Part shown: positions 32,301-59,886 of the stretch, in pieces | Layout: every line of letters begins with the position of its first letter | How positions within the stretch are numbered: position 1 is the first letter of the stretch | Origin: a bacterium | Lineage (GTDB): Bacteria > Bacteroidota > Bacteroidia > B-17B0 > Aurantibacillaceae | Assembly: GCA_029945625.1 (NCBI GenBank) | Contig: JAQSCW010000026.1 | Coordinates: 1-64,000 of the forward strand | Direction of reading: 5' to 3' | Length of the DNA: 64,000 nt | Notes under the pieces: generated by a model | What the model was told of the DNA's origin: nothing | Database searches by the model: none | What the model saw: only the letters and a program-made list of their open reading frames with translations | Position numbers and translations under genes: made by a program

Positions 32301-33308
32301 TCCGCTTTTCCCAAAATTGGTGGTGTTCTCTTCGTGATAATTATAATAATCATAACTTGTTGCGGTTACGTTTGAGCCACCGCTTAAGGTGCTCATCGTA
32401 TTAATTCGTTTTCCTCTTCCAAGGTCTGTATTTATAAAATAGTAACTCGAATCACTGTAAAGATTTTTAACAGCGGCATATTTGAGACCGCTTGAACTAC
32501 CCGTTTTTACCCATTCTGTGGGACCAAGCGCAAAAAAAAGAACGTAGTCGTTAGAATCAAAAACCCCGTCGTCTTCGCCCACCACTTTAATGGCATTTTC
32601 TTGAAGATCGTCAATTCTAACATCTTTATTTTGCTCGGGCAGCATCTTCCCGCCGTTTCCGTAAATTCTAAAATTGCGCGGGTCAAGGTCCTTGGTAGGC
32701 ACCCCTATAGAATTGAGGTACGACTTTGTGAGTTTGTAAACACCCTGCTGTGCCACAGCAATTTTGTACCACGTTCCCGTAGCCAGAACAGAACTTGTTA
32801 CGAAGTCAGAAGGACCTCTTGAAACCGGATTGTTAACGATTTGCCAAGTAAGATCATAATCCAGTAACTCTTCTATCTCATCCATGTTGTTGATGCGAAA
32901 CGGAACCAACTGACATTGATTTAGATTTTTTCGCTTGGCGATACTCGATATCGGAAGTAATTCAAATTTGCCGGAAAGTTGATGTTTTAAGTATTTCCTG
33001 ATGGCCGATGCGTGAGGTTCCGAAACCAATGAGGTAGACTTTATGATGAGTGAGGGAATGGCTGATTCGTTATAATTCGTGATCTTGTACACCAAATAGT
33101 ACGGCAAATTATTTTTTTGGTAATCATACGACGCATTCGCTACTTCGAGGTGTATGAAGGCAGTGTCGGTAAGATTGGAACGGGTAATTGCAGAAACCTT
33201 CATTGGTGGGTCTTTTGGGCCGATTGGGAGGCCGAATGGAGGTGTTTGTCCAAAAGAAAAAAAGAGACAAAAGAGTAATAAAATAGTACAGAAAGCAGGA
33301 TGGCGCAT
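29358..33308 (-). CDS. porU: PorU, T9SS C-terminal sortase (gingipain-like C25 peptidase)
   Basis: 1316 residues from the ATG at 33308. Signal peptide (about 1-21), beta-rich N-terminal region, then the C25 caspase-like domain with catalytic H808 (NYTGHGGEVG) and C842 (FITATCEFSRYDDP). A C-terminal domain of FlgD-like beta strands follows (NYPNPFTTRT at about 1225), which resembles a type A sorting domain. PorU removes the sorting domain of cargo and attaches the product to the anionic LPS. It is followed by porV in the same transcript. It faces porP/sprF across a 134-base divergent spacer. Confidence 0.96.
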   Translation of the reverse strand: MRHPAFCTILLLFCLFFSFGQTPPFGLPIGPKDPPMKVSAITRSNLTDTAFIHLEVANASYDYQKNNLPYYLVYKITNYNESAIPSLIIKSTSLVSEPHASAIRKYLKHQLSGKFELLPISSIAKRKNLNQCQLVPFRINNMDEIEELLDYDLTWQIVNNPVSRGPSDFVTSSVLATGTWYKIAVAQQGVYKLTKSYLNSIGVPTKDLDPRNFRIYGNGGKMLPEQNKDVRIDDLQENAIKVVGEDDGVFDSNDYVLFFALGPTEWVKTGSSSGLKYAAVKNLYSDSSYYFINTDLGRGKRINTMSTLSGGSNVTATSYDYYNYHEENTTNFGKSGRDFFGEYFDITTSYRFSWDDGDFVVNDTLISQTNLVAAYKENTTFLVSGNGFNYNVLTGPVSGQLYSDYAAPGSITNSVLNTASNEIALTVSKLTPKSLGWMDKLTVNARRNLNINGKQFLFRDTRTAKPGNICTFSITTPLNTQAILWNVTNPFNPIEQQFNAGSNSMNFAVATDQLLEFCVVPSNDFYVPGFAGKISNQNLHGFEQADYVIVTHPLFVKEAERLARFHQQKENLTYVIATTEQIYNEFSSGRQDICAIRDFIRMLYSRNLDNGKEVKYALLMGDGSYNNKNRSLVNNSNLIPTYQSYNTLSSTNSIATDDFYALMDPNEGYYAEQTGKIDIGIGRFTCRSVSEVKAVIAKIENYYAKDPGFQANATNPENCNNLNESPMGDWRNWLVFLGDDEDAAEHMQQADSLTGVVKSIDPSYNLDKIFLDAYQRFSTPGGGRYPDASTDFQKRIKKGALIFNYTGHGGEVGLTAERMVDIDIINNLDNFNKLPLFITATCEFSRYDDPSRTSAGELCLLNPKGGAVALFTTCRLAYSTFNFSLNIVTLEKLFNKLPDGSRPTLGDAIQMTKSDPRVTIAYITNFHLLGDPAMRLAYPENKIITSKINSVPVTSTSMDTLGALAKITIGGYVADNAGNKLSNFNGIVYPTVFDKEQLVSCLINTDPSAINYYSIRQYPDSSILRPYQFKLQKNILYRGKTLVTNGDFSFSFIVPKDVSFAPGPGKISYYATNGSTDANGYYKKLIVGGASKNVLVDTEGPKVTLFLNDKNFVNGGITNEKPVLYADLTDSSGINTLGTGIGHDISVIMDENTTKPTILNDYYEASLNSYQSGRVRYPYANLSEGEHRLSFKVWDIQNNSNTVYSDFIVAPSAELALQHVLNYPNPFTTRTKFFFEHNQACNPLKVTIQIYTVSGKLVKTIQTDVTCEGYRPAGVDWDGRDDFGDKLARGVYVYKLAILDVENKKAEKIEKLVILN

Positions 33309-33384
33309 AGTATTGCTTGTATCGTAAAACAAAGTACTGCAAAATAACGCAGAAGGCGGGCAGATTATTGTTTTTGTTTTTTTT

Positions 33385-43817: not shown

Positions 43818-46184
43818 TTAATTTCCACACGACAGCTGATAAGTTCTTTTTACTCCCGGATTCTCAAGAACCTGAAAGGTCATAAAGGGTTCTCCGAATA
43901 ATTTGCAGTAGCGATCTTTATTTTTTTCTTTGGCTATTTCCAACGCTTTGGCAAACTGACGTGAATAATATTTTTCACGCACTCTGCTGGCATAACTGAT
44001 GTACAAGAAAACCAGATTCTCATTCACCAAAGCGGCAGAAAGATAGGGTTCGAGAATTGCCGCGGCATTGCGGTAGTCGCGCGCGCGGTCAAATACCTGT
44101 GATAATTTAATGGCGTTTTGCCAAGTGGCCTCCTTCATGTTATAAAACGTTTTGATGCGGGCAATACAGGCATCCACCAGCGCCTCCGAATTGGGGAGTG
44201 TGTCTACACTTTCCATGATCTTAAATTGCCACTCAATATTTAATCCATTTACATAATTTGAATCCAATTGCCCATACAGTCCGTTAATGGTTTGTTGAAC
44301 TGAGGATTGATGTTCGGAATCACCCGCATTGCTGTCTAATTTCAAGCGGCAAAACACTGTATTGTATTGGAGAATGGGGTTGGAAGGTTCCGCTTTCAAA
44401 AGTCGGTCGAGAGTGGCCGCATCCTCGTCGTCCACGTTATTGGTTAGTAGGTAGCGGTAATAAATCTGATTATTAACTAAACCGGTAGTTTTTTCATTTT
44501 CAGGAATGCTGAGACTGTCGAAGAGTGAAACAGGGTAACGTTCTTGTTCGGCCCGCTTTTTGATGAACTCCATGATCTTATAAGATAATTTAATGTTACC
44601 GGCTTTAAGGGCTCTGTCGAAACTTACTTTGGCCAGCCGTTGTTCTTTGTTTCCGCTGAGGTCGTATGTCACATCCATGATGATTTGGGCAAACCGTTCT
44701 TTGGCAAGAATGGGTTCCAACTCTTCCACCAGTTTGGGGTCGCTGTTTATTTTTTCTATTGCTTTCTTTTTCCCCAAATTCACAATGTCGGCATATTTCC
44801 CATCTTCATTTTCAAGCAAAAATAATCCCCAGCTGTCACGTAATAAAATATTTGGATTGATCTTATTGTTCTGCCTTTTTTGCAAAATCTGTAATACGCT
44901 TTCGGCGCGCTTTCCCTGCAGTTTTGCGTTTGCCAGCGAATCCCCTTCAATAGAAGAGTACGCATAGATGTAGAGACCATCAATAATGAAGTCAGGCTCG
45001 TTCAGCGCATTAAGAAAAGGTTGAATGTCTTCTTGTTTGAACTCTGATTTATTTTTTTCAAATGGGATTACAAAATTCAAGATCGAACTTTCGGTGCGTG
45101 GTTCGAAAACCGGTTTTAGGTTTTGTGTGTTTTGAAATGGCAAGAGACCAATGGGCGTATTGCTTTCAATGTTTACCTGCTCGTTGTAACCGCGGGTTAC
45201 TGTTTTACACGCCTTTCCGTTCTGCACCACTATCAGATTCAATTCAAAGGGTCCTGTTATTTTGGGATTTAACTTACCCATTTCCACGTCAATGCCTTTC
45301 ACCTTCCGGTTTTCTTTTTTGTCCTTTGTGATCAATCGGTTCTTGCTGAAGAATTTTTCTTTATAAATTACTTTACTCATAACACCTTTGTTATACAAGT
45401 TGTTATCCACAATGTTGTAGTAGGCATTGATGTACTGGCTGCGCTGCACCACATCCACCGCAAGTCCGTCTTTTGGTTTTTTCAAAATGCGACGCAGTTC
45501 TCTTGTATTTGGATAGTGCAGATAGATCTTATCTCCCTCTATGCGAAGTCCTTTGTGAAGCAGATCGTAATTTCGCCATTGTTCGCAGGTTTTGCAGGCT
45601 CTTGCATCGGGAGGCTGCAGACTCTTGGAAGCTGTATTGAATGGCACCGTCATCTGTTTTTTTTGCAGCACCCCTTCATTCATGATGTCATAGCCTCCAA
45701 AAAAAGCACTCACGTATATTTTTTCACCCTCTTCATCCAAGGTCCCCACAATTCCGGCGAGCAAAAATCTTGGGTCGGTGAGTACGGCCAGATTTTTTTC
45801 GTTATTCTCCCAGCGGGTGTAAATCACTTTCGCTACCTCATCGGTGGTAAAATCCTCACGTCCCTTGCTAATCACCGCTTTCATGGTGAGTTCGGCCCCT
45901 TTATTACTGGCGCCCATTGTCTTTAGATATTGTAAACTGTTATTAAGATCTGTTTTTTCAGACTCATTGTCTGCCAAATCCTGCGAGCTCATGTCGGCCG
46001 CATTGGTCAGCATACTGTCCATTTCAAGGGTATCTAAACCTCTGTCGGCACGAAAACGGTTGAGTTCCGAAAGAATCAGACGCGATAATTTTTCTAAACG
46101 AAAACCTTCATCCCCTGACGGAGCCTGGCAAAACATTTTTCCTGAAAAAAGAAAGATCACGGCTATGAAAAGGGTGCGATTCAT
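43818..46184 (-). CDS. secreted protein with CAP/SCP-like and OmpA-like domains
   Basis: 788 residues from the ATG at 46184, with a signal peptide ending at about residue 20. A CAP/SCP-like domain (about 33-170) includes LSELNRFRADRGLDTLEMD and DEEGEKIYVSAFFGGYD. The usual active-site His in the first helix is replaced (AADMSSQDL), so catalysis is doubtful. An OmpA-like segment (about 368-450) reads PFEKNKSEFKQEDIQPFL and YAYSSIEGDS. TPR-like helices follow to the C terminus, which ends with Cys-containing ...YQLSCGN. It is upstream of nothing on its strand; the MauE gene precedes it. An envelope structural role is inferred. Confidence 0.7.
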   Translation of the reverse strand: MNRTLFIAVIFLFSGKMFCQAPSGDEGFRLEKLSRLILSELNRFRADRGLDTLEMDSMLTNAADMSSQDLADNESEKTDLNNSLQYLKTMGASNKGAELTMKAVISKGREDFTTDEVAKVIYTRWENNEKNLAVLTDPRFLLAGIVGTLDEEGEKIYVSAFFGGYDIMNEGVLQKKQMTVPFNTASKSLQPPDARACKTCEQWRNYDLLHKGLRIEGDKIYLHYPNTRELRRILKKPKDGLAVDVVQRSQYINAYYNIVDNNLYNKGVMSKVIYKEKFFSKNRLITKDKKENRKVKGIDVEMGKLNPKITGPFELNLIVVQNGKACKTVTRGYNEQVNIESNTPIGLLPFQNTQNLKPVFEPRTESSILNFVIPFEKNKSEFKQEDIQPFLNALNEPDFIIDGLYIYAYSSIEGDSLANAKLQGKRAESVLQILQKRQNNKINPNILLRDSWGLFLLENEDGKYADIVNLGKKKAIEKINSDPKLVEELEPILAKERFAQIIMDVTYDLSGNKEQRLAKVSFDRALKAGNIKLSYKIMEFIKKRAEQERYPVSLFDSLSIPENEKTTGLVNNQIYYRYLLTNNVDDEDAATLDRLLKAEPSNPILQYNTVFCRLKLDSNAGDSEHQSSVQQTINGLYGQLDSNYVNGLNIEWQFKIMESVDTLPNSEALVDACIARIKTFYNMKEATWQNAIKLSQVFDRARDYRNAAAILEPYLSAALVNENLVFLYISYASRVREKYYSRQFAKALEIAKEKNKDRYCKLFGEPFMTFQVLENPGVKRTYQLSCGN

Positions 46185-46282
46185 TTTTACGGAATTTTTA
46201 AGAACACAAATTATCAATTATACCAACGACATCAAACGCGAAAAAAAAAGGTTTTTAACATTCAGCGTGTTTAAACACCTGT

Positions 46283-47233
46283 TTAGGGTTTTCCGGTTTT
46301 GAGCCAATTTTCGATGGCGTATTGATTGAGTTCAAAGTAATCCACTTTCTTAACAATAACAGAATTATCGAGGTAGTAAATTCGGGGAAGTTGCGTAGAT
46401 GCCAATTGGATAAACGACTTACCGAGGCAAAAACTGTAAGGAATATTATCGGCTTGGGTATCCTCAATAAAACTCTGATACATGGCACGTTCACCATTTA
46501 GGATAAAGTAGATGGGTAGGGCAGGATTCTTCTTCTTGATAAGCCTGAATTTTTTGGCGGCAACGCGGCAATGCTGACAGGTAAGACTTAAGAAGGCCAC
46601 CACATGTTTACCCTTTCTCAGGTCCGGTTCGGGCACCTGCACCTTGGCGGTATCTTCAGGGTAATAGAGGAGGTTAAGGTCTAGTTGGTAATTCACTTTT
46701 TCGTCCAAGTTATTGGAGGTGTAAGAATAGTCGATGGGGTTCAGTACGAAGGGAGCAAGGACAGCCGTGCTTGCAAGAAGACTTACTAAGAACCTGGAGT
46801 ATTTTACTTTCCAAGTGCTGCCAAAAAAATACACAACAAGAGCGGCAATAACCATCAGCATGTTTTTGAGCAGGGCCTGGAAAGGCGTCATTTTCAAGTG
46901 CTCACCAAAACACCCACAATTTCCCGAATTGCCACTAATAAGGAGCTGAACAGAAAGGTAGACGATGAAAAACCCCAGAAGGGAGAAAGTAAGTGGTAAC
47001 GTAAATTTTTTAAGATTGTAGTTTGCCAAGAGCAAGATTCCCGCAAAAAATTCCAAACCAATAATCAATCTGGCTAAGATGGGTGCTGTGTACCAATCGC
47101 CAATACCAAGGTCGACAAAGGTAAACTCAAAGGTTTCAACTAAGGGCAAAAGTTTTGCATAGGCCGAATACACAAAGATAAGGCCAAGACTGATTGAGAA
47201 GAAAACAGAAATCAGGATCTTAGTAAGTTTCAT
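46283..47233 (-). CDS. DoxX/MauE-like membrane protein fused to a thioredoxin-fold domain
   Basis: 316 residues from the ATG at 47233. Four transmembrane helices (about 6-24, 45-60, 68-85 and 115-140) match the MauE/DoxX group, with a conserved Cys-containing NSGNCGCFGEHLK loop (about 95-107). A periplasmic domain follows from about 185, containing FLSLTCQHCRVAAKKF with the redox pair C219-Q-H-C222. It probably handles disulfide or thiol chemistry in the periplasm; the target is unknown. A longer frame to 47275 adds a non-conserved helix and is rejected. Confidence 0.82.
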   Translation of the reverse strand: MKLTKILISVFFSISLGLIFVYSAYAKLLPLVETFEFTFVDLGIGDWYTAPILARLIIGLEFFAGILLLANYNLKKFTLPLTFSLLGFFIVYLSVQLLISGNSGNCGCFGEHLKMTPFQALLKNMLMVIAALVVYFFGSTWKVKYSRFLVSLLASTAVLAPFVLNPIDYSYTSNNLDEKVNYQLDLNLLYYPEDTAKVQVPEPDLRKGKHVVAFLSLTCQHCRVAAKKFRLIKKKNPALPIYFILNGERAMYQSFIEDTQADNIPYSFCLGKSFIQLASTQLPRIYYLDNSVIVKKVDYFELNQYAIENWLKTGKP

Positions 47234-47327
47234 ATAAACAGCAATAGTTGACAAATATATCAAAATTGAGTCCAAGTGACCTTACCGCGCACTTGAATAG
47301 AAAAATGAAAATTTGTTTCAGAAACCT

Positions 47328-47384
47328 ACTTGCTGTTTATTACAGCAGGTCAAAAAAAAAGCCCCTCAGGGGAGGAGCTTTTTA
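47328..47384. terminator. tandem hairpins downstream of rpoD, T/A runs on both sides
   Basis: On the minus strand, which carries rpoD, AAGCTCCT/AGGGGCTT-type pairing around 47358-47380 is flanked by A and T runs on both strands, giving a bidirectional intrinsic terminator. A second stem, ACTTGCTGT (47328-47336) with ACAGCAGGT (47342-47350) and loop TTATT, sits directly beyond it. Together they isolate rpoD from the membrane thioredoxin gene. Confidence 0.7.
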
Positions 47385-47400
47385 TTAATTCGGTGTATAA

Positions 47401-48264
47401 TTATCCGAGGTACTGTTGCAGTAATTTACTGCGGCTGCTATGACGTAAACGTCGAATGGCTTTTTCTTTAATCTGACGAACGCGTTCGCGGGTAAGGTCA
47501 AATTTATCGCCAATTTCTTCAAGCGTTAAGCCATGATTTAGGCCGATGCCAAAAAATAATTTCACCACATCACGTTCTCTTTCGGTGAGGGTACTCAAAG
47601 CCCGGTCAATTTCTTTACTAAGCGATTCGTTCATTAATCCGGTATCGGCTTTTGGCGAATCGAGGTTAACCAACACATCCAACAAGCTGCTTTCCTCACC
47701 ATTGGCGAAAGGGGCATCCATGCTCACATGGCGACCACTCACTTTCATGGTATCACTCACTTTATCAATTGGCAGATCTAACATATCGGCTAACTCTTCG
47801 GCGCTGGGCTCGCGTTCAAATTGTTGCTCAAGTTTACTGTACGCTTTATTTATTTTATTGAGAGACCCTACTTGGTTGAGTGGCAAACGCACAATACGAC
47901 TTTGCTCCGCTAAAGCTTGAAGAATACTTTGACGGATCCACCATACTGCGTAGGAAATAAATTTAAAACCGCGGGTCTCGTCAAACCGGCGAGCAGCCTT
48001 TATCAAACCCAAATTACCTTCGTTGATAAGATCGGGCAAACTCAAACCCTGATTTTGGTATTGTTTGGCAACCGACACCACGAAACGCAGGTTTGCCCGC
48101 GTTAATTTCTCAAGCGCACGTTGATCGCCGTCCTTAATTTTTTTAGCTAAAACAACCTCTTCCTCGGCAGTAATTAATTCTTCACGGCCTATTTCCTGAA
48201 GGTATTTGTCGAGGGACGCGCTTTCGCGGTTGGTGATGGACTTGGTTATTTTTAGCTGCCTCAT
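47401..48264 (-). CDS. rpoD: primary sigma factor RpoD (Bacteroidetes sigma-ABfr type)
   Basis: 287 residues, the short form found in Bacteroidota without region 1.1. Region 1.2/2 starts at [21 protein letters not shown]. Region 2.1-2.4 contains [25 protein letters not shown] and [10 protein letters not shown]. Region 4.2, which reads the -33 element, is [29 protein letters not shown]. This factor recognises TTTG-N17-23-TAnnTTTG promoters, several of which are listed here. The upstream sequence carries TACCTTTA (minus strand, 48288-48281), a near match to the -7 box. Confidence 0.95.
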
Positions 48265-48722
48265 GCTGTATGGATTGGTTTAAAGGTATAAAATTATGAA
48301 AAAAAGATTAATCTCAAGAGCCTTTCTGAAGTATTAAACGGAAAAAAAAGCAAAAAGTTTTGAAAATCGGCCATTTTTAGCGTTAAAATAAAAAAAATGA
48401 GCTGTCAGAAATCCCTTTTTTACCACAACAAAGATTGATCATTCCTAACCGTGCGGAGCGTATCTCTTATAAAAATTCATCATGTAAAAGCAGGTGATTT
48501 GCCTCTTAACAAGGACTTCTACTTCAACATGACGCGTTGTTTTGCGCGGTATATTGGCCAAAAGGCTAGTAAAATCAGTATTCTCAGACCATACTAGTAA
48601 TTAACATAGGAGGTCTAACAACCCTCCTCTTAATTAACATTAAGGTGTTTAATCATAATGGTTTTAGGAGGTTTAGGCACTTGATGCCTTCGCTATTTTT
48701 ATGAAAATATAAACTGCCCCCA
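48265..48722. other. 458-base gap with divergent leaders, an SD-like repeat and a small ORF
   Basis: The left part holds the rpoD promoter region (near-consensus TACCTTTA on the minus strand at 48281-48288). The middle holds a possible small reading frame, listed separately at 48451-48597. The right part (48598-48690) is a structured leader of the coiled-coil gene. In it TAATTAACAT occurs twice (48598-48607, 48631-48640). AGGAGG occurs twice (48608-48613, 48666-48671), and the first copy can pair with CCTCCT (48623-48628). A small GGCA/TGCC hairpin lies at 48676-48688. No named RNA motif is recognised. Confidence 0.6.
48451..48597 (+). CDS. possible 48-residue small protein in the rpoD/coiled-coil spacer
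   Basis: A GTG-started plus-strand frame of 48 codons lies in the middle of a long spacer. The predicted peptide is basic and has no signal peptide; its C-terminal half reads FARYIGQK and ends SILRPY. A stop codon lies upstream in frame, so no longer start exists. I recognise no family. It may be chance, a leader peptide, or a real small protein. No RBS or promoter supports it. Confidence 0.2.
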   Translation: MRSVSLIKIHHVKAGDLPLNKDFYFNMTRCFARYIGQKASKISILRPY

Positions 48723-51077
48723 ATGAATGTAGAAAGCTTAAAATCTGAATTACAGCAAGTTCTCGAGAACGACGTGATCCTGCGAAAGGAATTTAACGGA
48801 TTAAAAAGATCCCTGAGCGACTACCGAAACCAGCTGATCATGCGTGATGAGGACTGCAAACGCCTTCAGGTAACCATTGATGTGTTAAACACCAAATTGG
48901 TGGTAATGGAACGCGACAATACCACTTACAAAGCTGAACTATCCTCGTTTAAAGAATTACGCGGCACCATCAAAGATCAACTGGAAGCCAAACAAGAAGA
49001 GATTGAAGCCCGCTTGCAGGAAATTCAAGGACTGAGAGATGATCTCAACACCATGGCAGCCAACTATGAAGCCAAAATGGAAGAAATGCGCCTGGAGGCC
49101 GGTTCAGAACTCGAACGTGTGACTTCCGAACTAACTCAGCAGATTAGCGAACTACGCACCAATACTCAGTATAAGGAAAGTGGCATCCGCGAAGAATTTG
49201 AAAACAGGGTTACCGAACTCACTAACAGTTGGGCCGACAAGGAACAAAATCTGGTGCTGAATCACGAAGAAGAAGTCCTTCGCCTTAACGATACTCATAC
49301 TGCCGAACTAACTGCATTATCGTCGCAACTTACTCATGAATTGGGCGGGAAATTATCCGCTTCACTGGAAGAATTGGAAGCCCTCAAGAATTCTCATGCT
49401 TTCTTACTGTCACAGCGCGAAGAGGAATTTACCGCAAAGATAGGGTCTTTGGATGAAGCTTACAGGGCCGAGGTCGCAGGACTTCGTTCGGCATTAGAAG
49501 AACAACGAAGCACCCTTACCACCAATTTTAACGCACAAATCGAACAGATCAAAAGTGAGTACCTCACCAAAGAAAATGATCTCGTGGCAGGTTATGAAAA
49601 GCGACTTGAAGAAATTCAATTGCACCAACATAACTCCGAAAGTGAAACAGTATCAGTATATGAATCGCGGATTGCTGCACTTGTAACCGAGTACGAAGAA
49701 AAATTATCGCATACCCTGATTCATTCTACGTCTCAAAATTCTAAATTGAACGAAGAGCTGGGAAAAGCACAGTCTGAGCACGAAGTAACGATGGAGAGAA
49801 TGAATGCGCTCACCTCCGAACTGCTGACGAAAAACACTGAGCTAGAAAATTTTTCGCTGCGTTTCAGTGAAAAAGAAGAAGAGGTAAAAAATGAAGTGGA
49901 ACGATTTGTGAATCTGAGCAATGAGTTTGAGAGTTTTAAACAACAAACCTCTCTTTCCGTTTCTGAACAAGTAAATGAATTAAATCAGCAAATAGCTTCT
50001 CTAAATCTGGTGCACAGCGATTATGTGAACGAACTTAGCACGCAAATCGACAACCTCAATACCGAGCTTAAAAATTTAGGTCAGTTGTTTGAGACCACCA
50101 CCAATTCACTTAGTGAAATGGAACAAGCCCTGGAACTAAAAGGTCAGGATCTTGAAAAAGCTAATTTGCTGATAGAAGAGCTGCAAGCCAAAATTGACTC
50201 ATTCGATGTCGCTATTGAAGAAAAAGAACTAGAACTGGGCACATTTAAGACGGATTTGGAGGCAACGGTTCGCCAGGAATTAAAAGAGCAAAAATTGGAG
50301 TATGATAAATTGCTCGCCGAAAACACAAATTTAATTGATGAAATTGACAGTGCGCAGGACAAAGTGGAAGCGCAAGAGCAGGAAATTACCTTACTAAAAG
50401 GAGAACTGGAAGAAGTGAAACTGCAAAGTGCCGGCAAGTCAGAATATTTTAAAGAGACGCTGTCCAATCGAAATTTTGAGATCACCAATCTGGAGGCCAA
50501 TAACGCCGCAATGAACCAGGAAATCCTTCAGTTGAAACAAGAAGTAAGTGAAATTCAGGCGCAAGTGCAGAGCAAATCAGCTGAGGAAGTGCAATTAACC
50601 GAGCTTCAGGAAAGACTAAATCTAACCAGCAGCCAAAATGTGGAGTTGGGAGTAGAAATAGATGCGCTGCATACAGTGATCTCCGAACTCAACGAGAAAG
50701 TGGAAGGAATGAATGCTCAATTACTTTCCTATGAAGGTGAGATCGGTGAATTAAAAGCCACTACAAAATCGGAAGACCAGGAAGCCTTTATTGACCGACT
50801 ATTCAAACAAATTGATGCCTTAAATGATCAACGACTGGTGCTACTGGACGAAAAAGAGCAAATGGCTAACCAACTTCTAAAAATGAATGATGTGGTGGGG
50901 TCCCTATCGCAACAAGTTGATACTGAGAAGATTGACGTTACGGGTTTGAATAATCACCGAAAGAACGTTATATTAGCAAATAATTCAGAAGGGACGACCG
51001 GAAAATCCCAGATGAAAGAACAAATAAACGATTTGGTGCGTGAAATTGACAAGTGCATAGCGTTATTAAGTGCTTAA
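48723..51077 (+). CDS. very long coiled-coil protein upstream of zapA
   Basis: 784 residues, nearly all heptad-repeat alpha helix rich in Glu, Leu, Asn, Gln and Lys, without a signal peptide or transmembrane segment, so cytoplasmic. The C terminus ends KEQINDLVREIDKCIALLSA; the REIDKCIALL motif is, to my knowledge, the hallmark of the short (about 100 residues) coiled-coil protein that precedes zapA in Bacteroidota. This copy is therefore an extended form of that partner. It stands 18 bases before zapA, which suggests coupled expression. It may act in Z-ring organisation as a ZapA partner; this is inferred from context. Confidence 0.75.
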   Translation: MNVESLKSELQQVLENDVILRKEFNGLKRSLSDYRNQLIMRDEDCKRLQVTIDVLNTKLVVMERDNTTYKAELSSFKELRGTIKDQLEAKQEEIEARLQEIQGLRDDLNTMAANYEAKMEEMRLEAGSELERVTSELTQQISELRTNTQYKESGIREEFENRVTELTNSWADKEQNLVLNHEEEVLRLNDTHTAELTALSSQLTHELGGKLSASLEELEALKNSHAFLLSQREEEFTAKIGSLDEAYRAEVAGLRSALEEQRSTLTTNFNAQIEQIKSEYLTKENDLVAGYEKRLEEIQLHQHNSESETVSVYESRIAALVTEYEEKLSHTLIHSTSQNSKLNEELGKAQSEHEVTMERMNALTSELLTKNTELENFSLRFSEKEEEVKNEVERFVNLSNEFESFKQQTSLSVSEQVNELNQQIASLNLVHSDYVNELSTQIDNLNTELKNLGQLFETTTNSLSEMEQALELKGQDLEKANLLIEELQAKIDSFDVAIEEKELELGTFKTDLEATVRQELKEQKLEYDKLLAENTNLIDEIDSAQDKVEAQEQEITLLKGELEEVKLQSAGKSEYFKETLSNRNFEITNLEANNAAMNQEILQLKQEVSEIQAQVQSKSAEEVQLTELQERLNLTSSQNVELGVEIDALHTVISELNEKVEGMNAQLLSYEGEIGELKATTKSEDQEAFIDRLFKQIDALNDQRLVLLDEKEQMANQLLKMNDVVGSLSQQVDTEKIDVTGLNNHRKNVILANNSEGTTGKSQMKEQINDLVREIDKCIALLSA

Positions 51078-51095
51078 TATTGACGCCCTCTTTAA

Positions 51096-51407
51096 ATGAG
51101 CGAAATAAACATAAAAGTTGAAGTAGCCGGAAGCGTTTTTCCTCTTAAGGTGGATGCGAAAGACGAACAAAACATTAAAGAGGCCGTTGATCTGATAAAT
51201 AAAAAAATTGCCGAGTTTGAAAAAAACTATGCGATTAAAGATAAGAAGGATTTGTTGAGTATGGTTATGCTGCAGTTAGTATCGCAGTTTTACACCAGAG
51301 CCAGCAGCGCGGAGAAGGAATTAAGTCATTTAAAACTACTGTTTGCCGATGTGGAGGTGATGTTGAAAGAACATCAGCAAAACATTAAAACAATTACAGA
51401 AGAGTAA
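51096..51407 (+). CDS. zapA: cell-division protein ZapA
   Basis: 103 residues. N-terminal domain with [18 protein letters not shown] and [19 protein letters not shown], followed by a helical C terminus for the dimer/tetramer coiled coil. ZapA cross-links FtsZ filaments at the division site. It follows the giant coiled-coil gene by 18 bases and precedes rny, the conserved order in Bacteroidota. A strong terminator lies between zapA and rny. Confidence 0.92.
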
Positions 51408-51426
51408 GCTGCAAAGCCTTATTTAC

Positions 51427-51467
51427 ACGCACAAATTTTAAGTCTAGCTTAAGGTTTGTGCGTTTTT
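51427..51467 (+). terminator. intrinsic terminator after zapA
   Basis: A sixteen-pair stem (51427-51442 with 51448-51463; A-C-G-C-A-C-A-A-A start, two G-T pairs) closes a TCTAG loop and is followed by Ts. It sits 19 bases past the zapA stop. The rny ATG is only 36 bases further, so rny must have its own start signal or depend on read-through. Confidence 0.9.
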
Positions 51468-51502
51468 ATTTACTAATAGAACCTAAAAAGAGAAAAAAGA
51501 CC

Positions 51503-53053
51503 ATGGACATACTAACACTTATATTTATTGCCGGTTCCTTAATTGTGGGGGTGATTGCCGGATTTCTGATAGCAGGAAGCAAATTGAACGCCAGTGCTGC
51601 AAAGGAAAAGGAAAATCTAATCAAAGAAGCGGAAGTGAAGTCGGAAGCGGTGAGGCAAGAAAAGATTCTCCAAGCGAAAGAGAAATTTTTGCAGCTCAAA
51701 GCCGAACACGATAAAACAATCCAAGAGAAGAACGCCCACATTGCACAGTCGGAAAACAGAGCTAAACAAAAGGAAAGTGAACTTAATAAAAAGATTGAGG
51801 ATCAAAACCGTAAGGACAAGGAACTTGAAGCTTTAAAAAACCAGGCCGGTCAGCAGATCGATCTTTACAAACATCGCTTAGAGGAAGTTGAAAAAGGGCA
51901 TCGTAAACAAGTAGAAATGCTGGAGAAGATCAGCGGCTTAAAAGCAGATGATGCCAAAGCTCAATTAATGGAATCGATAAAAGCAGAGGCCAAAACCCAA
52001 TCGATGGTGTATGTAAAGGACATTATGGAGGAGGCAAAATTAACAGCCAACAAAGAAGCAAAAAAAATAGTTTTGCAAACCATTCAGAGAGTGGCCACTG
52101 AAACAGCAATCGAAAATTCAATTTCTGTTTTTCACATAGAAGGCGACGAAACCAAAGGAAGAATTATTGGACGAGAAGGACGAAACATCCGCGCCTTGGA
52201 GGCCGCCACCGGTGTGGAGATCATTGTGGATGATACGCCTGACGCAATTACGTTGAGTTGCTTTGATTCGATACGCCGCGAAATTTGTCGTTTAGCATTA
52301 CACCAATTGGTGACAGATGGAAGGATTCACCCGGCCCGAATAGAAGAAGTGGTGGAAAAGACCAAAAAAATGCTCGAAGAAGAGATCATTGAAACGGGGA
52401 AACGCACCTGCATCGATCTTGGCATTCACGGGCTGGCCCCTGAATTAATTAGGATGGTAGGGCGGATGAAATACCGTTCTTCCTACGGACAAAACTTATT
52501 ACAACACAGCCGAGAAGTTGCCAATTTATGCGGCATTATGGCCAGCGAAATGGGCCTAAATCCGAAAGTAGCCAAACGTGCCGGACTATTGCATGATATT
52601 GGAAAAGTACCTGATAACGAACCGGAATTGCCCCACGCTTTGCTGGGGATGAAACTGGCCGAACAATACAAAGAAAAACCGGAGGTCGTAAATGCGATTG
52701 GGGCCCACCACGATGAGGTGGAAATGACCACACTGTATTCACCTATTATACAGGTGTGTGACGCCATTAGCGGCGCCCGTCCCGGAGCGCGTCGTGAAAT
52801 CGCCGAACAATACATGAAACGTTTAAAAGATTTGGAAGCACTGGCTTTGAGTTATGATGGAGTAGAGAAGACCTATGCCATTCAGGCGGGACGTGAAGTG
52901 CGGGTAATAGTATCGAGTGATAAAGTGAGCGATGGAAGAGCAGAGCAGTTGGCTTTTGAAATTTCTCAGCGGATCCAAACCGAAATGACCTATCCCGGAC
53001 AAGTAAAAGTAACGGTGATACGAGAAGTGAGGGCTACAGGGTACGCCAAGTAG
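51503..53053 (+). CDS. rny: ribonuclease Y
   Basis: 516 residues from the ATG at 51503, the usual start ([16 protein letters not shown]...). One N-terminal transmembrane helix (about 4-26), a long coiled coil (about 30-205), a KH domain with [19 protein letters not shown] (about 218-236), and an HD domain with H364-D365 in [10 protein letters not shown]. Membrane-bound endoribonuclease that starts mRNA decay. A frame to 51458 includes the terminator stem and is rejected. Confidence 0.97.
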
Positions 53054-53225
53054 TGCGCGGAATTGCGATATTGGTTTTAGCAAAATGGATAGTTTTACTT
53101 GCAAATGAGTGTTGAAAAGTGTTGCGCCAATGATTTGATAAAACATTTTTTTTTTTAGATATTGGACGCAAGGATTATTATCCAAATAAATTCAATTTTA
53201 ACAACACATTAAAAAATCATTTATT

Positions 53226-54023
53226 ATGAATATGAAAAGAACAATAACACTTGCGCTGATTATGTTAGGGCTCAATAACTATGCATTAGCATCATTGGTG
53301 CTTAAATCAGACCGATGGGATAATTATTCTGAAACAAAGAAGAAATTATTTGAAAAACGTAAACTCGTGAACAATAAACCGTTTGGGATTAGGACATCTG
53401 TATTTTCGGGTTCGGGAAAAGAATGGGATGAGACTGAGGTAACAAGTGGTGGGTTTTTCTTGAATTTTGGGCTTTACTTTCCGAATTCTAATTATTTTAG
53501 TGTACAACCAGATTCTTTGCCGGCCCCGGGCAATTTCGCAATGGGAGGTGCTTTTGATTTCGGAAATTATTTTCGTATTGCAAAAATGCAATATGGAAGG
53601 TTTAGCTTTGGTTTGAGGGCAACCTGGTTGTCAATTAGCGGTACCGGAAAGAAATCAGGTGATGACATTTATCTTGCGTATCAGTTTAGCGCATTACGTG
53701 TTGGTCCCCAATTTTGTGCCGCAATTAATGAAAACATGGGAATTGATGCCTTTTATGATATTGGCTATAATTATTCATTGGTTTACGGCGATATTTACAG
53801 TAAGGCAAAAACCGTAACTTCGGTTGGGTGGCTCAGAACTTATGCGGGACTTACACAAGAGATTGGCGCGGCCTTCCATTTTAAGGTATTTAGTGCCGGA
53901 CTAAGTTATCGATTTGGTAAGTTAAAAAACGTATCATCAACCTTTGACAGTGTTGATAAGCCAACTACGGATATTAAGAGCTCAACTAATAATCTTAGGC
54001 TTACGCTTGGCCTTAGATTCTAA
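53226..54023 (+). CDS. secreted beta-barrel outer-membrane protein
   Basis: 265 residues. Signal peptide (about 1-22, cleavage after YALAS). The rest is a strand-rich barrel with many Phe/Tyr/Gly (GGFFLNFGLYF, RFSFGLRATWLSI) and the final strand LRLTLGLRF ending in F, the usual signal for outer-membrane insertion. No conserved domain name can be given. It stands alone on its transcript after rny. Downstream is a gap with a GC-rich element and a plus-strand terminator. Confidence 0.7.
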   Translation: MNMKRTITLALIMLGLNNYALASLVLKSDRWDNYSETKKKLFEKRKLVNNKPFGIRTSVFSGSGKEWDETEVTSGGFFLNFGLYFPNSNYFSVQPDSLPAPGNFAMGGAFDFGNYFRIAKMQYGRFSFGLRATWLSISGTGKKSGDDIYLAYQFSALRVGPQFCAAINENMGIDAFYDIGYNYSLVYGDIYSKAKTVTSVGWLRTYAGLTQEIGAAFHFKVFSAGLSYRFGKLKNVSSTFDSVDKPTTDIKSSTNNLRLTLGLRF

Positions 54024-54187
54024 TGAGTGGACCCTCAAAAACTCCAAAAGCCTTATCAATATTGAATCACTAACGAAAACACTAAGGACTTAGGCTGCAG
54101 GAATTTAAATGTTGGGAACTAGAGCTGGCAGATATCTATAAGTGCATTATTAAAATCCAAGCTATTTGAAATTTTTACAAAAGGTGA

Positions 54188-54312
54188 TTTCGCGCCAGGG
54201 ACACGTAGGGGTAGTTCTTTTCGGCCTTTTCGGCCGAAAAAACCGTAGCGAAGCGGAGCCCGAAGTGGCCCGCTCGGGCGCCCAAGAAAAAAAGGACTTT
54301 TTGAGGTTCGCC
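54188..54312. repeat. GC-rich structured element, candidate interspersed repeat
   Basis: This part of the 349-base gap differs in base composition from its neighbours. It contains the perfect palindrome TTTTCGGCCGAAAA (54227-54240), a GCGAAGCGGAGCCCG segment (54247-54261), GGGCGCCC (54277-54284), and further self-pairing arms around both. Similar 'GTAGCGAAGCGGAGCCCG' segments are, to my recollection, frequent in intergenic repeats of Bacteroidota genomes, so this is probably a multi-copy element. The flanks (54024-54187 and 54313-54335) hold nothing I recognise. A reading frame on the minus strand through this area is an artefact. Confidence 0.5.
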
Positions 54313-54335
54313 TAATTAGTGGATAAATTGATTTG

Positions 54336-54364
54336 AACACCGGCAAGCAGTCGGTGTTTTTTTT
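54336..54364 (+). terminator. intrinsic terminator in the gap before the DUF4421-like gene
   Basis: AACACCG (54336-54342) pairs with CGGTGTT (54352-54358), loop GCAAGCAGT, then Ts to 54364. Plus-strand orientation. The nearest plus-strand gene ends 313 bases earlier, so the hairpin could end that transcript or an unannotated RNA that covers the GC-rich element. Confidence 0.75.
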
Positions 54365-54372
54365 GTTCCGTA

Positions 54373-55554
54373 TTAGTTGTAGTCCACCAATCCCATTGCT
54401 TTTAGCAATTTTCTCCCGTTTTTTTTAATGTTAAAGCGGTAACCCGAAAAAAACATGATCTTGCTGATGTAATTGGAGGTGTTAAAAAGCGTTGGATTTA
54501 AACTGTAATTATTATCGTAGGTGGACATGAATCCGAAAAAGAATTTTTGGTTATCATAGCGGATAGAACCTTTGGCGTTCAAATGTAGGGTTGGGTTTAA
54601 CGACAAGGTATGCCCCGCGCTGTCGAGAGTGGTATAGTTTGTTTTTTGTCCTCCTGCACCCAAGTTCAGAACAGCACTCACAATTATTTTTTTGTACACA
54701 TAGGTATAGCCATGTCCTACGCTCAACCCAATGGTGATGAGCGAGATTCGGTTAATGTCGTACAGTTCGGGCGACATACTCGGCTGCAGTGGCGTGTTTA
54801 CGATGCTTGAATCGGTGGAGTTAAACAACATGTAGGAGTGGTATAGTCCCAACATAAAAGAGCCTGCGCTTTTGCGCTGAACATCAGAAAAGGAAAAAGC
54901 TCCTCTCAACGAATATTTCCGGAAATTAAACACAAACATGGTATTTACCCCAAATGAAAATACATGAATGTCGGGCCTTATAAAGACAAGATCCGGATTT
55001 TGGACGGTGATGTCATAATCTTTGCGGTTAAATACATAAAATCCCGCGTAACGTTGAAAATTCACATCTGTAATCACCCTTCTGCCTACAACGGTTAATT
55101 GAACATCCTTACCTGAGGTATTGCCTTTGTCGGGTTTGGCTCCAAACTTAATGCCCGGATAGAATCCAAACGTAAGAATGATGTTGCTGAAATTGAAGCC
55201 TACATAATAATAATTATTGGGTGAAAACATGAGCGTGTTTTTTGTGCTCAGGTCGGTAAAATTAAAGCCGTAAAACTTCTTCACTACCGGAATGGTCAGC
55301 GTTAATTTTCTTTTGTTAGACCTGATGTAATTGGTATCATAATATGGAGTTTGGGGTGCCAGGAGTTGTTTAACATACCAGCGGTGAGGATACATAAACC
55401 GGTCTTTAAACGTTTTTTGCGGGATGTCATCATCCAGCAATTTGCTTTTTACAGAGTCGATCAAATTTTTGGCGAGACTATCAATTTGTGATTGCGTGTT
55501 TGATGAAACGAACATCAAAACAAGCAGACCAATATGGAAACGCAATTTCATCAT
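54373..55554 (-). CDS. secreted DUF4421-like outer-membrane protein
   Basis: 393 residues with signal peptide (about 1-23). The strand-rich body has the DUF4421 look: YDTNYIRSNKRKLTLTIPV near 75-93, FSDVQRKSAGSFMLGLYHSYM near 230-250, and the last strands FFGFMSTYDNNY. DUF4421 proteins are outer-membrane barrels of unknown function. It stands alone; the helicase starts just beyond the 5' end on the other strand. Confidence 0.78.
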   Translation of the reverse strand: MMKLRFHIGLLVLMFVSSNTQSQIDSLAKNLIDSVKSKLLDDDIPQKTFKDRFMYPHRWYVKQLLAPQTPYYDTNYIRSNKRKLTLTIPVVKKFYGFNFTDLSTKNTLMFSPNNYYYVGFNFSNIILTFGFYPGIKFGAKPDKGNTSGKDVQLTVVGRRVITDVNFQRYAGFYVFNRKDYDITVQNPDLVFIRPDIHVFSFGVNTMFVFNFRKYSLRGAFSFSDVQRKSAGSFMLGLYHSYMLFNSTDSSIVNTPLQPSMSPELYDINRISLITIGLSVGHGYTYVYKKIIVSAVLNLGAGGQKTNYTTLDSAGHTLSLNPTLHLNAKGSIRYDNQKFFFGFMSTYDNNYSLNPTLFNTSNYISKIMFFSGYRFNIKKNGRKLLKAMGLVDYN

Positions 55555-55705
55555 TTTTCCCCCCGATTTTCAATCCAACGCCCTCCTAAATATACTCGGC
55601 TTACACACTGCAAATTTTGGCATAATTGGCATAATTGGTGTTTTTAAGCTGTTAAAAAAGCCTATCTTAGCTACTTATAATAACCATAAACATAAATTTT
55701 CACTT

Positions 55706-56932
55706 TTGACATTCGACGATTTTAAATTTGACGCTTCCTTGATGGAAGGTCTTTACAGCATGGGTTACAAACAACCCACCCCCATTCAGGAACAAGCCAT
55801 TCCGGTAATTTTAGACAATAAGGATTTGATTGCCTGTGCCCAAACAGGTACCGGCAAAACCGCGGCCTATCTGCTTCCCATTATTGACCATATTGTGCGT
55901 TCAAAAACGCGACACCTTAATTGTTTAATCATAGCGCCTACGCGTGAACTCGTATTGCAGATCGATCAGCAAATTGACGGTATGGGTTATTTTTGTTCGG
56001 TGGGTTCCATTTCAATTTACGGTGGTAATGATGGCATGACCTGGGAAAAACAAAAACACGCCTTACGCGAAGGAGTTGATATTATTGTGGCCACGCCCGG
56101 CCGTTTGATAGCTCTTCTTCAAAACGGGGACATTAATTTTGAGCATTTGCAACATTTGGTGTTGGATGAGGCAGATCGCATGTTGGACATGGGTTTCTTT
56201 GACGATATCCAAACCATCATTAATTATTTGCCTAAGAAACGGCAAACCGTGATGTTTTCGGCCACCATGCCTCAAAAAATAAGAATGCTGGCAAATGCAA
56301 TTACTACCAATGCCGAACAAATTAATATTGCCATCAGTAAACCTGCGGCAGGAATTGTGCAACAGGCTTATGTGGTATTTGACAATCAAAAAGAAGCCTT
56401 GTTAAAAGGAATTCTTAAGAACGAAGATTTTAATTCTGTGATCATTTTTTCATCCACCAAAGACAATGTGAAATTGCTGGAAAAGAATCTGCGTAAGGTC
56501 TATCCTTCCATGAGGGCTTTTCACTCTGATCTCGAACAGGCCGAGCGTGAAGACATTATGAGGGATTTTAAAAGTAAAAAGCTCCGAATTTTAATTGGTA
56601 CTGATATTTTATCGCGAGGTATTGATGTGGATGGCATTAGTTTGATTGTAAATTACGATGCACCGCCCGATCCCGAAGATTATATTCACCGCATTGGCCG
56701 CACTGCCCGGGCTTCAAAAGCCGGCGTAGCCATTACTTTTATTAACCAGCGCGATCAGGGTAAATTCTCAAAAATTGAAGATCTGATGGGCTATGAAGTG
56801 GATAAAATGCCCATTCCGCCCGAATTGGGCAAAGGCCCCCCTTACGATCCCGAAGCCAATAAGAAATTGGGATTCAAACGTGGTCCGGCTAAAGGAAAAT
56901 CCAATTATAAGGGAAAAAGAAGGTCGGCGTAG
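55706..56932 (+). CDS. DEAD-box ATP-dependent RNA helicase (RhlE type)
   Basis: 408 residues from the TTG at 55706. The Q motif PTPIQEQAIP, motif I AQTGTGKT, motif II DEAD (in VLDEADRMLDMG), motif III SAT and motif VI HRIGRTAR are all intact. The start is placed at TTG because the Q-motif helix (TFDDFKFDASLMEGLYSMGY) needs these residues; the first ATG would cut it, and upstream sequence (back to 55424) overlaps the DUF4421 gene. A basic tail (GFKRGPAKGKSNYKGKRR) binds RNA. Likely ribosome assembly or cold-adaptation helicase. Confidence 0.94.
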   Translation: MTFDDFKFDASLMEGLYSMGYKQPTPIQEQAIPVILDNKDLIACAQTGTGKTAAYLLPIIDHIVRSKTRHLNCLIIAPTRELVLQIDQQIDGMGYFCSVGSISIYGGNDGMTWEKQKHALREGVDIIVATPGRLIALLQNGDINFEHLQHLVLDEADRMLDMGFFDDIQTIINYLPKKRQTVMFSATMPQKIRMLANAITTNAEQINIAISKPAAGIVQQAYVVFDNQKEALLKGILKNEDFNSVIIFSSTKDNVKLLEKNLRKVYPSMRAFHSDLEQAEREDIMRDFKSKKLRILIGTDILSRGIDVDGISLIVNYDAPPDPEDYIHRIGRTARASKAGVAITFINQRDQGKFSKIEDLMGYEVDKMPIPPELGKGPPYDPEANKKLGFKRGPAKGKSNYKGKRRSA

Positions 56933-57066: not shown

Positions 57067-59886
57067 ATGATAAATTTTTTTCTATCAAAGCTGTGTTCTA
57101 AGTTTGTTTTATACAAGGTGCGTTGTTTCCTTGTTTTGACCCCATTTATCCATATTATTTTTCAAACAGCGCACGCAGCTACCATTACGAGCGCAGGAAA
57201 TGGTGCGTGGAATTCAACAACTGTCAACGCCCCGTGGCCGGGTGGTGTTGTGCCCTTGGCCACAGATAACGTTATTATTTCAAACGGAAACACAATCAAT
57301 TTATCTTCCAACCAAACGATTGTTAATGTAACGATGAATGGAACAGGTGTTTTGAATTTGGGTACTAATACACGAACTCTCACAGTAAGTGGAAATTTCA
57401 CCATGAATGGGTCCAGTAATATTCAAGGTAATGCAACTAACCGTGGAATTGCAGTGGCCGGAAACTTTGTTGTTTCATCGGGCGCCAGTGTAATAATACA
57501 GAACATTGTTTTAAGTGTTACCGGGACTTTTCAAAATGATGGAACCATTGTATTAAATACAGCCAACACTGCAGGAAAATTTTTCGGGAATTTTTTAAAT
57601 AACGGAGTTTGGACGAATAGTGGCAATAATGTACCATTTACAGTAGGCGGCGATTTTACAAATAACGGCACTTTCACCCAAGGCACGGGTAGAGTTACGT
57701 TTACCGGCGCTACAAGTAATGTTTTGGGTGGCAGCGCTGCTAGTACAGCATTTGGCGGAGGTATTACCATAAATAAAGGAGTAGCCCAAGCAAACGTTTT
57801 GGATGTCACCTCTGTGATCACAATATTAGCCGGAGGTTTAACAATTACAAATGGCACATTTAAATTATCCAGTGCCTCAACAATTGTGCCTTTTACCGCT
57901 GATCCTAATATGCCCAACACAGGAAGATTATGGAATAACGGAGGGACGATTAATAGCACTGCCAATATTGATTGGACTGTTCTTGGTACAATAAGAGTAG
58001 ATGCAGGTATCACGAATTTTGGTACTTCTATCAATAACAGATTAATACCGGCCGACGCCACTAATATTGGATTAGTTGAAATAAACGGAGGAACCTTAAC
58101 TGTTTCGGGCCGCATATCTACCGGAGTAAATGCATGGGAATACAAAATGACAGGGGGTTGGTGTTTATTATGCACAGTAGGTAGTAACACTGGGGGGAGA
58201 GATATTTTTAATCTTGATAATTCTACCGGTGGAATTTTTAGCATGTCAGGGGGAACGCTTAACATCGTGAACAAAGGTGGGGGGGCAGGAGAAAATTTAG
58301 GGTACCACAATACAAGCATTTTAGGTGCGGGATTTACAGGAGGCGTCTTGCAAATGGGAAACTCAACTACTGCGGGAGCATCGACTATTAGAATTGAGAG
58401 TTTCAGGCCAATTTATAACCTTGTTATCAATGCCCCTACTTCGTTCATTCAAGTGCAGTCTCCCGCCGCACCATCTGCCACCACCGAACTACAGATTACA
58501 AACAGTGTCACCATTGTGGATGGAACCTTTGACATTAGTAATCAAAATATTTTGGTAGGTGGAAATTGGACCAATTTAAGTGCCGTTGCAGATCCTCTTA
58601 CACAGGGTACTAAGTCTGTGACTTTTAATGGTTCGTCGGCACAGACTTTTGCAAATTCAGGGCCGGCAAACGCGGGCATATTTTATAATTTAGTGTTTAA
58701 TAATTCATCAGGTAGTATTCCGCAAATCACTTTAAACAATAATTTATCAGCTACCAATGGCTTAACCTTAACTGCCGGTGGAATTGATATTAATTCTACT
58801 ATTTTATCATTAGGCTTATCGGCTGCAGCACCCGGCACACTCCTGCGCACGGCAGGTTGGCTTTATGGTGGTACTTTTACAAGATGGTTTGCGACTCCCA
58901 TTTTGGCAATTGGCAATGTTGCCGGATTATTTCCTATGGGAACATCAGTTGGAGACTATCGACCACTGTGGGTTGCCAATTCAGTCATTTTAACAACCGG
59001 CGGGCAAGTGAGCGTGGTTCATTCACCTACGTACCCGGCAACTTGGGTAGCTGCTTCTCATAACGATGCCAGTTGGGGAAACACCTTACAAGGTGTGTCA
59101 AATTCATTGTGGACCATTACTACCAGCGGTATAGACTTTAATGGCAGCAGTGCTCAGGTACGTTATGGCGGGGATGGATTTGGAATAAACACACTTACCG
59201 ACCTTAATGCCTCATTGTTGGCCAGTGTTGTTGGCACACACGGCGCAGCGACGAATGCAATCGCAACGTATGAGGTAAACCGCACGGCATTAACTACTGC
59301 ACAAATTGCGAATTCATGGCGAATAGGCTCAAGAAATGTGGTGCAATCGCCTTTGCCTATTTCATTAAGCAGTTTCACTGCAAAGTTGCTTGACAACCAG
59401 GTAAAACTTGACTGGATCACCGAGACAGAAACCAATAACGATTTTTTTACAGTGGAACGCTCGAAGGACTGTATAAATTTTGAGGTGCTAGCAGTGCTTG
59501 AGGGAGCGGGGACCAGTAATTCTCGTAATTATTATTCTGCTAGTGATACCAAGCCATTTTTTGGAATTGATTACTACCGATTAAAACAAACCGACTATGA
59601 CGGAAGTTCAAAATACCACAAAATTGTAGCGGTGAAGTTTGAAAAAATGCTCGAAACACTGCTCGTTTATCCAAACCCGGCCAAAGGATTGGTGTCACTT
59701 CAAATGAGTGATAATGGCAGTGCTGTATCTCTTACAGAAGTATTTAATTCCTTGGGACAAAAAGTATATTCAGTAAAGGGATTTGAATCGGGAATTGACC
59801 TTTCGGGTCAACCTGCAGGCATCTATTATTTGAATGTGCACTTGCCGTATCAGGTGATCACACAGAAACTGGCGCTTGAAAATTAA
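57067..59886 (+). CDS. large secreted T9SS cargo protein with type A sorting domain
   Basis: 939 residues. Signal peptide (about 1-37, ending TAHA). A long region of repeated short beta strands (about 40-560), rich in Asn, Thr, Gly and Ser, looks like a parallel beta-helix built from units such as NFTMNGSSNIQGN and TITNGTFKLSS. A fibronectin-like segment (LSSFTAKLLDNQVKLDWITETETNNDFFTVERS, key LDWxTETExNNxxFxVERS) at about 770-800 follows. The C-terminal T9SS domain has VYPNPAKGLVSLQM at about 858-871 and GQPAGIYYLNVHL near 915. It would be exported by the PorU/PorV machinery, and may be an adhesin. Confidence 0.85.
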   Translation: MINFFLSKLCSKFVLYKVRCFLVLTPFIHIIFQTAHAATITSAGNGAWNSTTVNAPWPGGVVPLATDNVIISNGNTINLSSNQTIVNVTMNGTGVLNLGTNTRTLTVSGNFTMNGSSNIQGNATNRGIAVAGNFVVSSGASVIIQNIVLSVTGTFQNDGTIVLNTANTAGKFFGNFLNNGVWTNSGNNVPFTVGGDFTNNGTFTQGTGRVTFTGATSNVLGGSAASTAFGGGITINKGVAQANVLDVTSVITILAGGLTITNGTFKLSSASTIVPFTADPNMPNTGRLWNNGGTINSTANIDWTVLGTIRVDAGITNFGTSINNRLIPADATNIGLVEINGGTLTVSGRISTGVNAWEYKMTGGWCLLCTVGSNTGGRDIFNLDNSTGGIFSMSGGTLNIVNKGGGAGENLGYHNTSILGAGFTGGVLQMGNSTTAGASTIRIESFRPIYNLVINAPTSFIQVQSPAAPSATTELQITNSVTIVDGTFDISNQNILVGGNWTNLSAVADPLTQGTKSVTFNGSSAQTFANSGPANAGIFYNLVFNNSSGSIPQITLNNNLSATNGLTLTAGGIDINSTILSLGLSAAAPGTLLRTAGWLYGGTFTRWFATPILAIGNVAGLFPMGTSVGDYRPLWVANSVILTTGGQVSVVHSPTYPATWVAASHNDASWGNTLQGVSNSLWTITTSGIDFNGSSAQVRYGGDGFGINTLTDLNASLLASVVGTHGAATNAIATYEVNRTALTTAQIANSWRIGSRNVVQSPLPISLSSFTAKLLDNQVKLDWITETETNNDFFTVERSKDCINFEVLAVLEGAGTSNSRNYYSASDTKPFFGIDYYRLKQTDYDGSSKYHKIVAVKFEKMLETLLVYPNPAKGLVSLQMSDNGSAVSLTEVFNSLGQKVYSVKGFESGIDLSGQPAGIYYLNVHLPYQVITQKLALEN

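Follow-up and report, generated by a model that had tools for sequence, protein, structure and literature searches.

The gene at 48723..51077 (+) of the window, meaning the whole 64-kb stretch of DNA analysed here, encodes a single long coiled coil of 784 residues (89.5 kDa, pI 4.5) before zapA, and by sequence homology this giant protein is an N-terminally extended variant of a family of short zapA-partner proteins in Bacteroidia. The long form is a trait of the whole order and not peculiar to the window's genome. Its presence throughout the order, a conserved new N-terminus and a rod that has outlived ZapA in one genus all go beyond the original prediction, which had rightly recognised the REIDKCIALL C-terminal motif of the short proteins on a several-times-longer chain in the same gene position. 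The giant is probably an enlarged Z-ring partner of the ZapB/ZauP type, with its tail docked on ZapA and its N-terminus on a second partner.

The open frame begins with ATG, and its product starts with the letters MNVESLKSELQQVLENDV, ends with ...INDLVREIDKCIALLSA and has no proline at all. Three parts can be told apart along the chain: a conserved N-terminal segment (48723..49052, +; residues 1-110; ELQQVL..LRKEF..LKRSLSDYRNQLIMRDEDCKRLQVTIDVLNTKL), a variable rod (49053..50789, +; residues ~111-689) and a tail (50790..51074, +; residues ~690-784) that corresponds by homology to the ~96-aa short protein of other Bacteroidia over its full length. Conservation along the long proteins peaks at residues 1-84 and about 700-784, and the middle is least conserved. 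The heptad period of the rod is 3.54 (3.67 for residues 113-305), and heptad power over residues 1-730 is 22.2 against a shuffle maximum of 9.1. In the AlphaFold2 (AF2) model the N-terminal segment is a helix that runs unbroken into the rod, whose predicted helices span residues 4-305 (common to both parts), 354-411, 434-617 and 625-678; the remaining helices are 686-731, 740-750 and 764-783, the last being the C-terminal helix (51012..51074, +), which bears VREIDKCIALL and is preceded by a predicted low-confidence linker. The model, a monomer built from 25 sequences (mean pLDDT 72, pTM 0.23), shows predicted helical propensity only, neither oligomer nor rod length. Matches of the giant to SMC/Rad50 (TIGR02168, 51 bits against a cut-off of 567; NCBIfam SMC models, 37-51 bits) and to ATP-synthase-B models, far below their cut-offs, were rejected as matches of composition.

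The relationship between the tail and the short protein was examined with two sets of sequences. The short set held 38 of 39 proteins encoded upstream of zapA outside the order (35 loci plus four earlier ones, less the duplicate L130, which equals L057), with lengths of 81-119 aa and a median of 96. The long set held 42 proteins from a subset of the order's genomes, each with a frame of more than 400 aa and an adjoining recognised zapA, the split or cut copies G010, G011 and G019 being excluded. A profile of the 38 short proteins, built without any long one, matched all 42 long proteins over their last ~80-107 residues (i-E 2.7e-22 to 1.2e-10, Z 4000) and gave no match at E 10 to reversed and shuffled copies of them; after removal of the last 45 residues it still matched 11 of the 42, with a best E of 0.0018. 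In the other direction, a long-tail profile found the short protein in 35 of 35 loci (34 distinct), each adjoining zapA, which is a confirmation and not an unbiased rate because these loci had been chosen as matches to profile A1. Alignment of basal long forms with short forms by hhalign gave a probability of 99.3% across 95 columns, which cover almost all of the short protein. Since the short profile matches the C termini of all 42 long proteins, the tail corresponds to the whole short protein, with a new N-terminus and a rod in front of it, and the homology proposed for the C terminus in the original prediction holds.

The structural models agree on the plan of this part: the short protein is predicted to form two helices, 2-65 and 67-91 (mean pLDDT 86.6), and a coiled coil, a break and a motif helix are common to it and to the tail of the giant. 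Measured against the short family, the giant has the homology over ~96 aa and the gene position directly before zapA, and it departs from the ~96-aa length, being 4-9 times as long and having a rod and a conserved N-terminus; both have the [VI]REIDKCIALL end and a coiled coil followed by a C-terminal helix. Scans for a curated model of the short family gave, among the matches listed for the 38 proteins, no Pfam score at cut-off (cut-offs for three) and no NCBIfam match at cut-off for two members.

The order was sampled by 87 genomes, which belong to 10 genera of a single family. Of these, 80 match the tail profile, and in 73 the match lies in an open frame of 434-911 aa; in the other seven counted matches, head and tail are on different contigs (G010, G019, G088 and G092) or the frame apparently reaches a contig end (G011, G057 and G081). 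The 42 intact copies of the long set, each with an adjoining zapA, have lengths of 415-893 aa, although two of these lengths (803 in L035 and 893 in L080) are slightly low, their start codons having been placed too far downstream. Outside the order the frames are short. In the class Bacteroidia, 287 of 395 genomes match the tail profile, the window's order included, and among the matches listed the frame outside the order is 182 aa or less in every case; 108 of the 395 class genomes gave no match. In the phylum sample, which overlaps with the class sample, 87 of 395 genomes match, all within Bacteroidia, and the 86 other than the window have frames of 92-150 aa. The contrast between order frames of 434-911 aa and short frames elsewhere is what makes the long form an order-wide trait. 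The short protein had been credited to most Bacteroidota, a statement that stands for the class and fails for the phylum; because the phylum matches all belong to Bacteroidia, it should read most Bacteroidia.

Coiled coils do match one another by composition, as the 37-51 bits of the NCBIfam SMC models illustrate, so that a C-terminal resemblance by chance, or an artefact of assembly or reading frame, has to be weighed. Eighty of the 87 order genomes carry the same gene, one of them in a single contig, the reversed, shuffled and tail-less controls fail, and each matching genome in the class and phylum searches has one place of match, which adjoins zapA at the loci examined. The 784-aa form itself occurs both in G001, a genome of one contig, and in G043, which has two, and together with the 42 intact copies beside zapA this disposes of the mis-assembly that had been named as a possible objection; the probability left to artefact or chance is negligible.

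The N-terminal segment is more narrowly distributed. A profile of the first 116 residues found it in 69 of the 87 order genomes, weakly in one of these (G061), and it is clear in five of the 10 genera. In the basal genera g18, g20, g22 and g25 the N-terminus looks similar and has diverged, so that the head profile search missed it; the hhalign comparison involving proteins of these genera aligned columns 361-788 only, with the N-terminus outside. Of 13 matches in 295 class genomes, 10 were in the order and none of the three outside it was convincing, these being partial with E 1.7e-4 to 9.2e-4. No convincing source of the segment was found in Pfam, in PDB, where matches were weak and of coiled-coil type, or in PHROGs.

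The adjoining zapA (51096..51407, +; 103 aa; Pfam PF05164, E 2.2e-13) is of ordinary length and follows the stop codon of the giant after 18 bp, from which we infer that the two genes form an operon; across the long-form loci, the zapA open frame starts between -5 and 27 bases past the giant's last codon. The conserved downstream neighbour is rny (51500..53053, +), which encodes RNase Y. Between zapA and rny lies a terminator-like hairpin (51427..51463, +) with a 17-pair stem and a T run, a consensus match only, which suggests a two-gene transcript of giant and zapA; it is the longest stem among three terminator-like sites in the region, where shuffles lead one to expect 2.9. A sigma-70-type factor (47401-48264, -) is divergent from the giant and upstream of it in many genomes, and where found among the loci of the genus it is 97-100% identical, another element of a conserved neighbourhood. 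Elsewhere in the window are genes for a 1324-residue protein (29358-33332, -) that has a domain of peptidase family C25 (E 1.2e-99) and matches FlgD Ig-like weakly, presumably resembling type IX secretion sortases; a 939-residue protein (57067-59886, +) with a secretion-system C-terminal sorting domain (Por_Secre_tail); and a 1024-residue protein (6493-9567, +) that matches amidohydrolases over two stretches and may be a fusion. No tRNA was found in the 64-kb window and no RNA family in 45000-56000.

The history of the lengthening was followed on an RNase Y tree of 46 rows including four outgroups, a single-gene tree in which the program flagged long branches; among the 44 order loci considered for it, G022 and G002 have no full rny. 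The order is recovered as a single clade (support 100/97). Proteins of 415-561 aa in g25, 489-543 aa in g20 and g22 and 665 aa in g18 (position supported at 92/72) belong to the early branches; in the crown clade (100/99) most proteins have 640-893 aa and two are shorter, at 540 and 564 aa. The tree thus suggests stepwise lengthening with some secondary shortening, and the length variation within the clade, which the original prediction had proposed to examine, runs from 415 to 893 aa, with the whole order long.

Selection on the giant gene is strongly purifying: six of seven pairs have a whole-gene dN/dS of 0.03-0.13 and the remaining pair is saturated. Of the six unsaturated pairs, five have a lower value for the N-terminus than for the rod, and four a lower value for the tail than for the rod. 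These values bear on the idea that coiled-coil length merely drifts, with the tail alone mattering and the rod and N-terminus functionless. Rod length does vary (total protein length 415-893 aa) and conservation is lowest in the middle, as drift would have it; the N-terminus, however, is about as conserved as the tail, the whole-gene dN/dS is low, the rod was retained after loss of ZapA (below), and the 38 short forms stayed at 81-119 aa, so that free drift is not the rule. Neutral lengthening is therefore very improbable.

The link of the giant to ZapA can be followed in their joint distribution. The tail is present in 80 and ZapA in 79 of the 87 order genomes, and presence or absence agrees in 86, the exception being G011, in which a contig ends inside the gene. 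Because the genes adjoin, tail and ZapA vanish together with a missing contig, and this is the likely cause of their joint absence from G041, G077 and G085 (56-78% complete).

The genus g19, sampled by four genomes that are 78-96% complete, has lost ZapA: neither Pfam PF05164 nor a profile specific to the order, read up to E 10, found it in any of the four, and the stretch separating the giant from rny holds no zapA remnant at either of the two loci examined. FtsZ was found in three of the four genomes, as was the long coiled coil, which is cut in G061; G060, without matches for the long coiled coil, rny or ftsZ, is uninformative. In the two complete loci (L146:2170-4194 and L147:1855-4044) a rod of 672 or 727 aa stands directly before rny. 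The tails keep an NI[TS]NLDAxRKxTIFA stretch (the LxxxRKxxIxA part), and the REIDKCIALL end is gone. Matches to the long-tail profile (E ~1e-5 when the last 130 aa are taken alone, ~3e-4 with the whole protein) and to the head are weak, and orthology leans on position. The place of g19 within the crown clade (support 100/99), whose members carry the giant, means that the rod outlasted the loss of both zapA and the motif.

Loss of REIDKCIALL in a genus without zapA ties the motif to ZapA. From this we infer that REIDKCIALL is the ZapA contact, for which g19 is the best evidence here, and that the C-terminal helix bearing VREIDKCIALL is the ZapA-docking helix. The agreement in 86 of 87 genomes and the motif loss in g19 lend indirect support to a functional link of the giant to ZapA, so that the original interpretation, in which the giant is a Z-ring partner whose size may reflect unusual division or cell shape, is supported in part. 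Because the rod persists without ZapA, it and the N-terminus must do something independent of ZapA; the rod would then have a second role, and its main role could lie elsewhere than in ZapA docking. This independent function would most simply be self-assembly or the binding of a second partner.

If self-assembly were its main role, the giant would be an intermediate-filament-like rod that shapes or stiffens the cell, with ZapA as a midcell anchor only. Conserved ends around a rod of variable length (proteins of 415-893 aa), long heptad stretches, strong constraint on the N-terminus and the rod's survival without ZapA in g19 would all suit such a filament former. Crescentin and the bacterial intermediate-filament-like proteins likewise have a long coiled-coil rod with conserved ends; they resemble the giant in architecture only and have no known zapA link. 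The crescentin family (Rod_CreS, PF19220) was rejected as a candidate, its score being 14.6 bits against a cut-off of 100 over the N-terminal 109 residues, and the full giant gave no Rod_CreS match at E 0.001. This missing family match counts against a filament former, as does the presence of ZapA, which a free filament would not need, in 79 of 80 tail-bearing genomes (the exception falling at a contig end). We regard this alternative as unlikely.

The enlarged Z-ring partner that we favour instead has its nearest known counterparts in ZapB and ZauP. In E. coli, zapB is not known to adjoin zapA, and ZapB probably makes its ZapA contact nearer the N-terminus, so that the C-terminal motif of the giant need not work alike. 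ZapB (PF06005, PDB 2jee), a ZapA partner of 81 aa, is all coiled coil, as is the giant, which gave no match to the Pfam ZapB model at E 0.001. Four of the 38 short proteins match PF06005 at E <= 0.001 (best 1.5e-4), with scores of 13-22 bits against a cut-off of 31.5 among the matches listed. The short-family profile also aligns with 2jee in register (residues 5-61 on 5-61, E 2.3e-4), which is only a lead because GCN4 fusions and designed coils score alike, and which could reflect remote homology or coiled-coil composition.

For ZauP of C. crescentus, the published accounts describe a zauP-zapA operon and an oligomeric protein that binds ZapA and recruits the terminus-bound ZapT, and ZauP is the functional counterpart of ZapB (PMC7858052, PMC7188993). 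ZauP and the giant are both coiled coils encoded with zapA, the giant's operon being a reading of its 18-bp gap, but ZauP is small, 26 kDa with a His-SUMO tag in those same accounts (PMC7858052, PMC7188993), against 89.5 kDa. By position and build, the short Bacteroidia protein is probably of the same ZapB/ZauP kind, a coiled coil that is joined to the Z-ring by way of ZapA. The ZapA binder ZapJ of Streptococcus pneumoniae is not a ZapB, has 24 kDa and is encoded in an operon of its own upstream of murC (PMC8687745); ZapA partners thus differ between phyla.

As an enlarged Z-ring partner, the giant would dock on ZapA, itself on FtsZ filaments, through the C-terminal helix VREIDKCIALL, and the rod would point either into the cell or along the ring and reach at most ~97 nm when fully stretched (about 655 helical residues before the motif helix in the AF2 model, each counted as ~0.15 nm). 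Its distal, conserved N-terminus would bind a second partner, which may be the nucleoid, another rod or the envelope. The Z-ring layer would then be several times deeper than that of ZapB and would cross-link filaments over a longer distance or tether the ring to the nucleoid.

A rival explanation holds that the giant tethers the Z-ring to the chromosome, its N-terminus binding DNA or a terminus-binding protein and so replacing the ZapB-MatP or ZauP-ZapT chain. Precedent exists in ZapB and ZauP, which join ring to terminus (PMC7858052, PMC7188993, PMC4388696); in E. coli, ZapB sits ~37 nm to the inside of FtsZ, with MatP another ~30 nm in (PMC4388696), and the rod would be long enough to span both layers. 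The N-terminus and tail are also the most conserved parts. The N-terminal 110 residues are nevertheless acidic (charge about -4.5) and modelled by AF2 as a plain helix without a DNA-binding fold, and in Pfam and PDB the segment has weak coiled-coil matches and no other family match, which leaves the chromosome tether a doubtful alternative.

The giant bears on a question of some generality, since the mode of action of ZapA partners outside Proteobacteria and Streptococcus is poorly known. No paper on long ZapA partners or on the Bacteroidia zapA-upstream family was found among the titles and abstracts of an open-access collection with few subscription papers. The order provides a graded natural length series, with steps of 415-561, 665 and 750-893 aa against ~96 aa outside, and g19 provides a natural loss of zapA with a matching loss of one short motif; together they make both the ZapA-binding residues and the dependence of Z-ring layer depth on partner length testable. 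It is also conceivable, as a tentative and rather unlikely extension, that a small Z-ring accessory was turned stepwise into a ~100-nm cytoskeletal rod, equipped with an assembly or binding end of its own, which in g19 was then freed from the Z-ring. If so, g19, with zapA lost, the docking motif decayed and the rod kept, would represent a cytoskeletal element arising from a part of the divisome.
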